DNA of 38,780 bases from Flavivirga aquimarina (GTDB lineage Bacteria > Bacteroidota > Bacteroidia > Flavobacteriales > Flavobacteriaceae), in assembly GCF_030540835.1 (NCBI RefSeq), contig NZ_JAUOEK010000013.1, positions 1-38,780 on the forward strand, read 5' to 3'. The translations under genes were made by a program, and so were the position numbers. Below are positions 1,245 through 29,203 of this stretch, piece after piece. Below the pieces are notes generated by a model. It had not been told where the DNA came from. It made no database searches and saw only the letters and a program-made list of their open reading frames with translations. Position 1 is the first letter of the stretch, and every line of letters begins with the position of its first letter.

Positions 1245-4200
1245 TTATTTCTTATAATGTTTAGCATAGCCTTTATAAGAGAAAAATCCTAACAGAGCAA
1301 TTAATACGCAGGCAACTCCAATCATTTTAAAACTAAGCACCTGATCTCCACTTGCATAAGAATGTAATCCGGCAAGGTAAAAATTCACCCCAAAATACGT
1401 CATTAAAACAGTCGATATTGCTATAATAGACATTAAATTAAAGAACCAACGCCCTCGAAGCCCAGGAATTAAACGCATATGTATAACAAAGGCATAAATC
1501 ATAATACTAATAAGCGCCCAAGTTTCTTTAGGATCCCAACCCCAGTAACGTCCCCAACTTTCATTTGCCCACATACCTCCTAAAAAGTTACCGATGGTAA
1601 ACATAATTAAACCTACAGTTAAAGCCATTTCTGTAACTGTAGTAAGCTCTTGAATATTAAGCAACATTTTTTCTTTGTTTCTTTCTTTAGTAAATATCAT
1701 TAAGAATAGGGATACTATTCCTAATATCATACCTAAAATAAAAGGGCCATAACCTGCTACGATTACAGAAACATGAATCATTGACCAATAACTTTTCAAC
1801 ACTGGTTGTAAATTTGCGATAGCTGGGTCTAACCAGTTTTTATGAGCAAATAATAAAATTACAGCAACGACAAACGTAGTAGAAGCTATTGTTAAGTCAC
1901 TTTTTCTACCAAAGCCTAAGCCAAAGAACATAGTAGACCATGATACATACAACATAGTTTCGTATGTATCTAACCAAGGCGCATGCCCGGATATATACCA
2001 CCGAGCTATCAAGCCTAAAGTATGGATAATGAATACAGCAATAACAAGCCATCTAAAAACACTAACCGTTTTATTTACAAACTTACTTTTATCTTTAAGT
2101 ATTTGAAAAATTAAGGCAACAAACATAATAATGCCAAATAGCAAATAAAATAAATAGAGCTTTTTAAAAATATCGTATTTATTATAAGTGATTTCGGTAT
2201 TCACTTTCTCATCGCTTAGCATCACCTCAGCACCATATTGATGCTGTGTCTTTTTGAAGGCAGCTAATAGCTTTGATGCTTCAGAAAAATCGCCTGATTG
2301 TTTCGCATTATTTAATGTATAGAGATAGACTCTAAAACCATTATTAACAAAATTGCCGTAAAGAGAGTCTTTAATCTTAATTCGCTCTCTTCCATATTCC
2401 GAAGCTGAAATCCATTTATTATTGTCATCATCAGGAATAGGAAATATTTTTAATGAAGCACCGTCAATAGTAGCATATAGTAAATTAACACGCTGATGCA
2501 CTTTAATGAATTGTTTTTGAAAAGCATTAGGAGTCAATGTGCTAGAAGCTTCATTAATATAAGCATCCAATTTATAATCACCTCTCTCTGTAAAGAAATC
2601 AGCTAACGTTGCATATTTTTCAGTTTTTTCTATTCCAATAATACGGCGAATTGAATCTGCTTTTTTGAGCTCTAAATAAATAATAGGTACGTTATACCAA
2701 AGCATAGGGCTTTCCTGTATTGATAAGAATACCTGGTCTGCACTAAAACCTTCATAGTTATCACGACTACTTACTTTACGAAGCATTTCAGAAGCATAAG
2801 TATTTACAGGCTTCATACGCCCATCAAGATCCTGAATGACCATATGTCCAAATTCCTCAGCATGTGCTTTTGGAACTATGTTTACCTTTAAAATAGAATC
2901 TATTTGTGCTTTTGCAGGCTTTGAATGGTCATGACCATCATTCGGTGAGTGTTCCTGAGAAAAAGCATTCAATCCAAAACATAACACAATAACCGTAAGT
3001 AATTTTGCTTTTTTAGATTTAATCTTATCTAGTTGCTTTTTTAAATACCCAAAACGAGAATCTTTAACAAACAAAATAGCCATCATCCCAAAATAAAGAA
3101 GGAAATAACCAATATAAGTTATTAAAGAGCCCCAATAATCATGATTTACAGAAAGAATGGTTCCTTTCTCATCTGGATCAAACCCAGATTGGAAGAAACG
3201 ATAGCCACCATGATCTAAAATGTTGTTCATGAAAATTTTATAATCGTAATCACCTTCTTTTTCATCTAAAACCGTTATTTGACTAGAATACGCAGAATAT
3301 CCTTTTTCAGTTCCAGGATAGCGTTCTGCTTCAAAATCATTTAATTTTATATTAAAGGGCAGCTCTAATTCTTTTGCTCCATATTTTAATGCGAAATCCA
3401 GGCCACCAATGGTAACCTGTTTATAATTTCCATTAATGCCCTGTCCGCCCAATACGCCTACAGACTTTGTTTCTCCATTTGCTGTTACTTTAAATACAGC
3501 TCCATCGGTATCGTTTTTTAAAAGCTGTGATTTTTGTACAACATCAAAAACACCTTTAACAACTGGTTTTGGAAATACCATTTGCATATTACCTATCACA
3601 TAGCGCGAACGTAGTATTAAAGGTTGTATACTATCTTTTATTAATTTTCCTTGTGCTCTGGTTGCCATAGTCATGTACTCACCCTCAAAAGGAGATTCAA
3701 TAGTAAGTTCACCTTTATTATGTGTAATATTTATGGCACCATCGGTTGGTTTATTAAGGGAAAATAAAATATTATGGATACTTTGTACCTGTCCTTCTTT
3801 TAAAAAGTGATTATGTGGACCATTTACTCCTGCTTCAACTATTTTTAAATAGGCTTCTCCATTTTCATTTGGAACAATATCTTCTTCAGCTCCTACTATA
3901 AATTTTTCTAATTCGATAATAACCGGTTGTTTATCGTAGTCGGTTTTAATTTTAAAATCGTTATCTAATCGTCCTGAAAAATCAACTTTGCTTTCTATAT
4001 AACGTTGTTGTAATTGTCCGTCTATTTCATAATCACCAACAATTTGTGTTGTTACATAAGTATCTCTGGATAAGAATGTGTTTTCTGTAGCACCTTCTCT
4101 AATAGGCATCATACCTTCAAAGCCTGTATATCTGGTAATAAAAGCGCCAAACAAAATTAAAATAAAGGATAGATGTAAAATAAGCGTGGCCCACTTTTCT

Positions 4201-27119: not shown

Positions 27120-27193
27120 GGCGAGGTAGCTCAGTTGGTTAGAGCGTCGGATTCATAACCCGGAGGTCGGGGGATCGTGCCCCCCTCTCGCTA
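27120..27193 (+). tRNA. tRNA-Met (CAT)
   Basis: 74-base cloverleaf. The acceptor GGCGAGG pairs with TCTCGCT (G-U at each end), the D arm is GCTC-AGTTGGTTA-GAGC, the anticodon loop is TTCATAA, and the variable loop AGGTC is followed by a five-GC T stem. CCA is not encoded. The D arm and loops match elongator tRNA-Met better than initiator. The T loop reads ATCGTGC rather than the usual TTCGANT, which is odd (see findings). A promoter precedes it and a terminator follows it. Confidence 0.93.
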
Positions 27194-27208
27194 CTAAGGA
27201 AATAAAGG

Positions 27209-27277: not shown

Positions 27278-27490
27278 CCCGATAGCGCGGATTTGCAATC
27301 CGTGCCATATTTATTAAAAAAAACATGCAATATAACAACATAAAATTAGCTGTCTAAACTGGCATATTATCATTATAAAATAACCGATATCGGTCATAGT
27401 GGCTTTCTACTTTGTTGGGGTTTTCTGATTTTTCGTAAAGTATAAAAATCTTATTTAGTAGGGCACGGATTGCAAATCCGCGCTATCGGG
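27278..27490. mobile_element. MITE/REP-pair-like element, copy A
   Basis: A 213-bp non-coding element with perfect 29-bp terminal inverted repeats (27278-27306 and 27462-27490, starting CCCGATAGCGCGG). Each end is also a hairpin (CGGATT-TGC-AATCCG). The interior has a 12-bp palindrome ACCGATATCGGT (27383-27394). GTAG stands just before the right-hand hairpin (27458-27461), like the tetranucleotide in front of REP hairpins moved by RAYT transposases. Copy B at 28990-29203 differs at only about ten positions. No transposase and no clear target duplication are visible. Confidence 0.85.
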
Positions 27491-27898
27491 TTTAAGAGAA
27501 ATAAGAAAATCTTTGATAAGGTAGGTGTTCAAGCTAAATTCATACGATGGAATCAGTGGATTGAAGGTGACGAAACTCAATATATCCATGCACAACTTAA
27601 ACAACTAATGGAAACAGATGTTAAATTTAAAGATGCTGTATTTCACGATGTTAAAAATTATGTTGAACGCCAAATACACAAGGGTAAAGTATTCGCCACA
27701 CGCCAAGAAGCTTATAAAAAAGCTACTGACTGTATTTTAGAAAAAATCGCAGTTAATACTTGTATGGGAAGACGTTTTGAGCATATCAAACTATACCCAA
27801 GTACACAAAATAAATCATCAAAACTTATCTTATCAGGTAAAATTAATGCTCCTTATGGTTTGCATCGTCAACACTACGTTAAACTGACTGAACGATAA
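27491..27898 (+). pseudogene. 5'-truncated gene fragment of unknown family
   Basis: An open frame runs out of the right end of element A (which would add TTG and seven codons) and continues for about 135 residues to a stop at 27898. The first internal ATG is at 27608. The product is balanced and protein-like, with KFIRWNQWIEGDETQYIHAQ near the start, a charged helix (KNYVERQIHKGKVFATRQEAYKKATD) and a basic end (GLHRQHYVKLTER). Element A begins where the gene's 5' part should lie, so this is probably the remains of a longer gene. I do not recognise the family. Confidence 0.45.
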
Positions 27899-27904
27899 AT
27901 TACA

Positions 27905-28440
27905 CATCCACATCGCTTTTCCTTTTCTCGATCATATTAAGGTAGAGTTTGTCGTTGATCTTAAAAGATAGAATAAAGTTGATTTTAAAATTTGTAATAA
28001 AAAACTTTGTTCAAATAAGTGATTTTTACTACATTGTGTCCGCTATTAATCAGTTCTGGAATATAATATAATACACTGTTAGGGCTATCTGTGTATTATG
28101 TGTGTGTATTCGCTTTTACCAATTTGTAAAACGCGTTATGCAGTTTTATGCTGATTAATAACTAATGAATAAACTAAACAAACTTTTAAGATTAATTTCT
28201 TATAATGAAGTCTCTCTACTAGATGTCTCTCTACTAGCCGCTCCCTTAATTGTATTTATATTTTGGAGAATCATTAAAGATATAATGATATTGTCGATAA
28301 TCAAAAAAGATAAAAATATTAAAAACTTCAAAATATCTCGCAATGGAATTGAGGTAAACAAAGAACCTTCAAGAAAAAAAAAGAAAGAGAGGAAAAAAGA
28401 AAAAAAAAGTGAAGATTAACTATTTTTCTTTTTCCAAGTA
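27905..28440 (+). repeat. tandem ~540 bp unit, copy 1
   Basis: This unit and the next (28441-28985) share a leader block (GATCATATTAAGGT against GATCATATAAAGGT), a middle GTCCGCTATTAA/GTCAGCTATTAA block, a homologous small gene, and the same trailer (GATTAACTATTTT ... CAAGTAACCC). It is an old duplication: coding parts are roughly 75-80% alike by eye, leaders less. The 266-bp leader holds no gene that I can see. Confidence 0.7.
28165..28419 (+). CDS. membrane microprotein with lysine-rich tail, paralogue 1
   Basis: An 84-residue protein with a short N-terminal amphipathic part, one membrane helix (about 25-38, APLIVFIFWRIIKD at its end), and a second hydrophobic patch (IMILSIIKK). A long basic tail carries about fourteen Lys in the last 25 residues and ends in SED. 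Paralogue 2 shares WRIIK, IIKKDK, FxISR, IEVNKE and the KKK tail. The N-terminal part holds a 15-bp in-frame direct duplication (28210-28237, VSLLDVSLLA). Family not recognised. The tail is probably cytoplasmic and could bind nucleic acid or acidic lipids. Confidence 0.65.
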   Translation: MNKLNKLLRLISYNEVSLLDVSLLAAPLIVFIFWRIIKDIMILSIIKKDKNIKNFKISRNGIEVNKEPSRKKKKERKKEKKSED

Positions 28441-28985
28441 ACCCTAACATCTGTCACAAAGGATTTGTCTTCCTTGATCATATAAAGGTGATGTTTATTT
28501 CTGATTTTAAGCTACTTACATTGATATATGAAGATTGATAATACCTAATCCATTTTGTCAGCTATTAAATTTTTATTATATTTACGTATACTGCAAAAAG
28601 GTCTCTGTTAGTTTAGGACGATCTTTCAATTTTTAAATATCTGTATTATTAAAACGAATCGTTTGACAAATTAGTCAAATGCATTGGCTATTTATTAATA
28701 TAAATATTTATTGAAAGAACTAACTAAAATACTGAAATTTACTTCCAATGAAGAGACTTTATTAAATCATTTGATAATCGTTTCTTTTATTATATTTTTC
28801 TTATGGAGAATCATTAAAGAAATAATATTATTATTAATAATCAAAAAAGATAAAAAGATTAAAAGCTTCCGAATATCTCGTCTTGGATCAATTGAGGTAA
28901 ATAAAGAGCTTTCAAGAAAAAAAAGAAAGAGAAGAAAAAAGAAAAAAAATGAAGATTAACTATTTTCATTTTTTCAAGTAACCCA
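28441..28985 (+). repeat. tandem ~540 bp unit, copy 2
   Basis: Second copy of the unit, ending just before element B. Its 290-bp leader shows a short inverted repeat, TTTGAC-N6-GTCAAA (28662-28679), and no gene. Confidence 0.7.
28711..28959 (+). CDS. membrane microprotein with lysine-rich tail, paralogue 2
   Basis: An 82-residue paralogue of the protein at 28165. It starts at TTG 28711, and the start is supported by alignment (MKELTKILKF against MNKLNKLLRL). One membrane helix (about 20-36), WRIIKEIILLLIIKKDKKIK, then an RISRLGSIEVNKE strand and a tail of almost pure Lys/Arg (RKKRKRRKKKKNED). The conserved region is the helix end and the IEVNKE segment, which argues that both copies were kept as proteins. 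Family not recognised. It ends 30 bp before element B. Confidence 0.65.
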   Translation: MKELTKILKFTSNEETLLNHLIIVSFIIFFLWRIIKEIILLLIIKKDKKIKSFRISRLGSIEVNKELSRKKRKRRKKKKNED

Positions 28986-28989
28986 AATA

Positions 28990-29203
28990 CCCGATAGCGC
29001 GGATTTGCAATCCGTGCCATATTTATTTTAAAAAAACATTCAATATAACAACATCAAATTCGCTATTTAAACTGGCATATTATCGTTATAAAATAACCGA
29101 TATCGGTCATAGTGGCTTTCTACTTTGTTGGTGTTTTCTGATTTTTCGTAAAGTATAAAAATCTTATTTAGTAGGGCACGGATTGCAAATCCGCGCTATC
29201 GGG
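28990..29203. mobile_element. MITE/REP-pair-like element, copy B
   Basis: 214 bp, same orientation and ends as copy A, with 29-bp inverted repeats at 28990-29018 and 29175-29203, GTAG at 29171-29174 and the ACCGATATCGGT palindrome at 29096-29107. It differs from copy A by about nine substitutions and one indel, all internal. The rest of the 419-bp gap up to the sigma factor gene is A/T-rich DNA with a TATATTTG at 29337. Confidence 0.85.

Follow-up and report, generated by a model that had tools for sequence, protein, structure and literature searches.

Two copies of a short repeat element, here termed A and B, lie behind a tRNA-Met gene of Flavivirga aquimarina and are, as judged by alignment, internal-deletion derivatives of a RAYT (REP-associated tyrosine transposase) unit. 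A copy of this unit is present in the same genome. A and B are best read as REPIN-like MITEs born by internal deletion of the unit. It is highly probable that they are miniature, non-autonomous RAYT derivatives, presumably mobilised in trans, that were inserted separately behind tRNA-Met. A first-pass annotation had taken the pair for non-autonomous elements, and the deletion structure bears this out. The stretch of DNA analysed, referred to as the window, comprises 38,780 nt of contig NZ_JAUOEK010000013.1 (assembly GCF_030540835.1); its relevant features are listed in Table 1.

Table 1. Features at and around elements A and B (positions in the window)
Feature	Positions	Strand	Remarks
tRNA-Met (CAT), conserved neighbour, border of variable tract	27120..27194	+	ARAGORN, Rfam, synteny
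Element A, RAYT-derived REP doublet (MITE/REPIN-like)	27278..27490	- (strand of RAYT remnant)	213 bp
REP, 3' side of RAYT remnant in A	27278..27306	-	foot TATG
REP, 5' side of RAYT remnant in A	27462..27490	+	foot GTAG, one base ahead of pattern
ORF, 142 aa	27470-27898	+	start inside A
Putative cyclodipeptide synthase C-terminal part, remnant cut at A's edge	27494..27895	+	aligned to 5ocd
Microprotein 1, 84 aa, lysine/arginine-rich C-terminus	28165..28419	+	no family
Microprotein 2, 82 aa, tandem paralogue of microprotein 1	28711..28959	+	no family
Element B, second copy of same RAYT deletion derivative	28990..29203	-	214 bp; internal junction as in A
REP, 3' side of RAYT remnant in B	28990..29018	-	foot TATG
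REP, 5' side of RAYT remnant in B	29175..29203	+	foot GTAG, one base ahead of pattern

Elements A and B and the RAYT unit of the same genome

The coordinates reported for A and B in the first-pass annotation proved exact, and the shared orientation and the identity of about 95% were borne out. The two elements have inverted ends and are identical in 205 of 214 aligned columns (95.8%, with one gap column), and a BLAST search of the genome with A recovers B at E 6e-95. The inverted arms measure 40 nt at 90% identity in A and 33 nt at 97% in B, with an imperfect palindrome at their heart. The REP core, CGGATTTGCAATCCG, is found at four sites in the window when up to two mismatches are allowed, whereas 100 shuffles gave 0.08 sites on average. 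The folding of single-stranded A and B is much stronger than that of 200 shuffled sequences (z -8.8 and -9.0); lone REP hairpins display a modest folding gain (z -1.6 to -1.8). One stem pair is T-A in 12 of 18 distinct REP cores and C-G in the other six, all six being from one genome.

The search with A also detects two matching halves on contig C114, one on either side of a single gene. This gene, a RAYT 184 codons long, scores above the Y1_Tnp cut-off. Two parts of A, positions 1-89 and 90-199, align with the two sides of the gene, collinearly and on one strand, at 82% and 75% identity. Contig C64 adds a third, shorter copy, C75 a REP and the end of C83 a half element. The C83 end carries the REP that is missing from the C114 unit. 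Contigs C83 and C114 probably adjoin, as their ends overlap by 140 identical bases at the start of C114 and C83 supplies the other REP; the end overlap is the basis of this adjacency, and a repeat could produce the same overlap.

When aligned, A and B correspond to the RAYT unit minus nearly the whole gene, and the gap is identical in the two. What persists on the RAYT strand is about codons 3-18 together with the last 16 codons. In B these remnants translate as TK*KATMTDIGYFITI and YASLNSEFDVVILNVF, and the full unit has TKYKATMTDTGYFITI and YASLDSELDIIILHIF. Stops interrupt the first remnant in both elements and the second remnant in A as well; by three-frame translation of the RAYT strand, the coding capacity of A and B is limited to these remnants. 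The C64 copy has a different gap over the gene, and about the first 15 RAYT codons are still open. Nine differences separate A from B; polarised on three RAYT units, five represent changes in A and two changes in B, with two unpolarised. With the identity of A to the surviving unit at only 75-82%, the immediate parent could be a lost or unsampled RAYT, or a relative of the unit.

The REP pattern is present at nine sites across the genome (up to three mismatches), and three copies of the element have both ends: A, B and the C64 copy. A second RAYT type is encoded on contig C80. The C64 copy, the third miniature element (locus L141, positions 2784-3100), adjoins an apparent C-terminal remnant of this second type; the remnant is to the right of the element and has a different REP.

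The tract behind tRNA-Met and the enclosed segment

A and B look like separate insertions, since their flanks are unrelated: the 200 bp flanks of the two, compared by BLAST, give short matches only, at E 0.03 or weaker. Similarity between the elements ends at the REP ends. The C64 copy is at a third, different genomic place. No repeat of 3-11 nt abuts both sides of A or of B, which fits Y1 transposition; members of IS200/IS605 are described, in the available part of the source, as producing no larger target duplications (PMC2817692). The right flank of the C64 copy is present in 12 of 12 genomes of the genus, its own included, and the left flank was found in its own genome only, with 25 candidates scored per genome in the relatives. 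An empty site for A, B or the C64 copy was not found among relatives.

The gap between tRNA-Met and A is 83 bp. This neighbourhood was compared at 91 loci of a START-like gene, from 11 congeners (1.5 kb flanks) and 80 named records (up to 10 kb), the genomes being partly shared. The tRNA-Met gene is beside the START-like gene at 89 of the 91. A, B, the enzyme fragment and the microproteins are seen at none of these loci, some of which are short; the module is thus not collinear in the relatives. The hotspot suggested earlier stands in the sense of a variable tract, beside which the START-like gene and tRNA-Met stay together. Over the 12 kb past the tRNA, the tract matches one of the 11 congeners only (G006), in a 50 bp tRNA terminator (to about 27254) and in 466 bp at 65% identity far downstream. 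Among the congeners, only G009, G002 and G010 have most of this stretch in common with one another.

Repeated words resembling GTACAACA are situated directly past the tRNA terminator at loci L063, L064, L072, L149 and L153. At L076 and L078 an apparent start of an integrase gene, judged by eye, follows tRNA-Met. At all of these loci the tract after tRNA-Met is possibly an integration site.

The segment enclosed by A and B (27491-28989, 1499 bp) holds a partial ORF and two paralogous small ORFs, as the first-pass annotation had described for its 1.5 kb. The partial ORF is, from its alignment, the remnant of a cyclodipeptide synthase (CDPS) gene. By phmmer it matches residues 97-206 of the 266 of PDB entry 5ocd at E 4e-6. 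Four other cyclodipeptide synthases in the PDB reach only E 0.4-0.61, and unrelated RNase P proteins score better (0.19-0.22). A Pfam scan up to E 1 gives no CDPS match for the ORF, and the CDPS model PF16715 has no match across the genome, this fragment included. With one significant match, the assignment is good, not beyond doubt. The match to 5ocd starts at the first residue of the query, four bases past the right end of A. The N-terminal third is missing, and the ORF does not amount to a complete enzyme.

Relatives of the enzyme fragment were not detected in 396 other genomes of the family or 394 other genomes of the phylum (overlapping sets), or in plasmids. Six PHROGs matches at E 0.03-0.15 are judged to be due to chance. 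CDPS clusters are reported in the related genus Kordia, in a source available in part, so this enzyme family would be no stranger among Flavobacteriaceae.

The two microproteins share 49 of 81 aligned residues, the gaps are whole codons and the stretch is 25% G+C. Microprotein 1 has no match in Pfam, NCBIfam, PHROGs or PADLOC; for microprotein 2 the same collections give nothing but one sub-cut-off Pfam match (E 0.038). One weak match to microprotein 1, at 36% and with stops (G347), is found among the 396 other family genomes, and none in plasmids. The enzyme fragment and the microprotein pair have a single occurrence in their own genome. The enclosed ORFs had been said to belong to no recognised family, which is true of the microproteins and not of the first ORF, given its match to 5ocd.

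RAYT units and deletion derivatives in other genomes

A search for the element in 12 Flavivirga genomes, that of F. aquimarina included, gives matches in four; the match in G001 spans just 44 bp. In F. jejuensis (G005) and in a further congener, G007, the RAYT gene occupies the variable interval, bordered by conserved genes, that also holds it in F. aquimarina; in G007 it is inverted. The RAYT genes of F. aquimarina and F. jejuensis are identical at 543 of 555 bases, against 84% for 4.3 kb of neighbouring DNA and 347 of 387 ungapped columns for the START-like gene. At four-fold degenerate sites, the RAYT gene has 2 differences in 51 and the START-like gene 18 in 35. That the RAYT unit is far more alike than its neighbourhood points to a recent move or exchange between the species; gene conversion may be an alternative source of the likeness. 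The RAYT gene of G007 is identical to that of F. aquimarina at 483 of 555 bases, a divergence about that of ordinary genes.

Tandem copies are found beside RAYT genes in both congeners. In F. jejuensis (L137, contig C6, 1378-2515) there are two tandem RAYT copies, one truncated at its 3' end. Both contain the same internal in-frame stop, which suggests doubling of an already broken gene or spread of the stop; the truncated copy has an extra stop. The intact RAYT of G007 has beside it (L138, contig C23, 990-1560) a tandem row of four additional units of about 118 bp, each consisting of a REP and the last part of the RAYT gene. A second REP type, which surrounds the C80-type RAYT, is scattered over several contigs of G007 in at least 10 copies.

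RAYT relatives at E 1e-40 or better are present in 61 of 359 family genomes, that of F. aquimarina included. Parallel cases were sought in nine genomes, the six closest outside the genus (G148, G276, G094, G241, G221 and G248) plus G005, G007 and G335, in stretches that extended at most about 10 kb to either side of the RAYT and less at contig ends. Internal-deletion derivatives are found near the RAYT unit in three of the nine. G094 has two copies of one derivative, in which one REP, the leader and 27-28 codons run directly into the last 5-6 codons and the other REP; the first copy matches at E 3e-63 and 5e-22. G276 has two derivatives. One retains both ends, with the leader and the last gene codons between the REPs, and the other matches on the 5' side and displays only a degenerate REP at its other end. 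In G248, one derivative is near its unit.

No both-ended derivative is present in the examined stretch of the other six. Extra REP or flank repeats are found in G241 and G221, and G335 shows a RAYT end only, at a contig edge. A doublet in G148 is not counted as a derivative: its REPs match the RAYT unit and its inner part does not. Together with A/B and the C64 copy, there are five deletion classes across four genomes. Five derivatives near units, and B relative to A, all have the same orientation (6 of 6, cases that are not independent). Uniform orientation would fit a strand-biased single-strand process, and the few, non-independent cases make this suggestive. A family-wide search for the element finds it in 2 of 397 genomes (F. 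aquimarina and G335); two candidates were scored per genome, so that absence from other family genomes means little.

Proposed origin, alternatives and known systems

The complete unit consists of a REP, a short 5' leader, the RAYT gene (184 codons; HUH/Y1 family) and an inverted REP. One internal deletion removed nearly the whole gene and left both REPs, the leader, the now decayed codons of about 3-18 and the last 16. It can be envisaged that the doublet, with its REP hairpins recognised on single-stranded DNA by a Y1 transposase acting in trans, is excised or copied and then placed at another site, with no duplication of the target. From the sequences, we infer such mobilisation in trans by RAYT for A and B, which would have entered the variable tract behind tRNA-Met separately, as the same derivative. 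The 5' loss of the cyclodipeptide synthase gene at A might have come about by insertion followed by deletion, or by recombination between two element copies.

A broader proposal is tentative and somewhat more open to doubt than to belief. The RAYT units of Flavobacteriaceae may be working single-strand transposons that move whole and repeatedly spawn REPIN-like miniatures, which insert nearby in the same orientation. If so, newborn REPINs would be on view in A/B, the C64 copy and the derivatives of G094, G276 and G248, several of which have spacers where the transposase gene can still be read.

A local segmental or tandem duplication, in which only an ancestor was mobile, could have given rise to A and B, which have the same orientation 1.7 kb apart and enclose microprotein genes that are themselves a tandem duplication; the tandem truncated copies adjoining RAYT units in two congeners would be in keeping with this. 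Such an origin is nonetheless unlikely, as the flanks of A and B have no common sequence beyond the short weak matches and the similarity stops at the REP ends. A composite mobile unit, with A and B as its ends and the 1.5 kb segment as cargo, is very unlikely. The segment does lie between same-orientation copies, is not seen at this place in relatives and includes an enzyme fragment without a match in the family and phylum genomes searched. Against this, the "cargo" is not intact, as its first gene breaks off where A ends, a second instance of the segment is absent from the genome, and related derivatives are found alone (C64, G248) or near other DNA (G094, G276). The idea that the pair moves or protects cargo, raised in the first-pass annotation, thus finds no backing in the unrelated flanks or in a truncated enzyme fragment seen in no other genome searched.

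The strong, long hairpin would also suit terminators or an RNA gene, structural or regulatory, that serve the host and are retained for that reason. This is the kind of reading that had been named earlier as telling against a mobile sequence, and it is scarcely credible here: at the gathering threshold Rfam reports the tRNA as its sole match and nothing for A or B, the elements are not seen behind tRNA-Met in the relatives examined, and their interior is decayed RAYT coding sequence.

The parent type of A and B is the RAYT unit or REPtron (TnpA-REP), the subject of work reportedly by Nunvar 2010 and Quentin 2018. As described in the available portions of two papers, it is a RAYT gene between inverted REPs (PMC2817692, PMC6006769). 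The active-site words SHIH, WQ and YIHNNP of the F. aquimarina RAYT place it near the Bacteroidetes-rich subclasses 2.4 and 2.6, as these are given in the accessible text; the subclasses have N at the first place, whereas this RAYT has S. According to the same partial sources, whole REPtrons do not seem to transpose (PMC2817692, PMC6006769). The F. aquimarina unit differs in being far more alike between two species than its surroundings and in leaving deletion derivatives, and the comparison with F. jejuensis casts doubt on the idea that a RAYT unit never moves in one piece. RAYTs are said to appear incapable of self-mobilisation (PMC3116915, in part), which the loci described here seem to challenge, and transfer by RAYTs was held very unlikely in earlier work, as far as the available text goes. 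In Chryseobacterium, a gene called RayT is proposed to have moved next to a drug-resistance gene (PMC11194056, in excerpt), so movement of a RAYT in or near this bacterial family has already been suggested. Related literature, also available in part, includes PMC8049555, PMC8266576 and PMC7477175.

Like MITEs, A and B are short, have terminal inverted repeats and no evident product, and their ends match a transposase-bearing element in the genome. Unlike MITEs, their parent encodes a Y1 single-strand transposase, no target-site duplication is seen and there are very few copies. The TIRtron/TIRYT, as portrayed in the available part of PMC3733652, consists of RAYT-like genes bounded by long terminal inverted repeats, and the same repeats are met elsewhere as small repeat families. 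A and B differ in having REP hairpins at the ends, with the GTAG foot on one side, and in small copies that keep the ends of the gene.

The REPIN, as defined in the accessible text of Bertels and Rainey 2011 (PMC3116915), consists like A and B of two inverted REPs and a spacer; in both, the doublet forms a single-strand hairpin (A and B at the z values given above) and a cognate RAYT is in the genome. Unlike a REPIN, A and B have a spacer of about 150 bp made of RAYT-unit ends, a GT[AG]G foot at one REP only (GTAG; the other, gene-3' REP has TATG) and a low copy number, with three both-ended copies and nine REP sites in the genome. Hundreds of copies are reported, in partially available sources, for classic REPIN hosts. 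A and B would thus work like REPINs or MITEs, and REPIN membership fails on copy number and one foot.

REPIN evolution is described in the available part of PMC3116915 as another unknown, with REPs around an IS200-like ancestor as one possible source. REPINs made from RAYT remnants were not found in the REPIN and RAYT literature consulted, which consists of partial texts and few subscription papers. Loci of the A/B type look like missing intermediates for an origin of REPINs from the REPs of an IS200-like ancestor. With REP doublets whose spacers are RAYT remnants, in five deletion classes and four genomes, the question of REPIN origin becomes testable, and leftovers of this kind near RAYT relatives of other bacteria suggest a route by which a widespread class of bacterial repeats may form.
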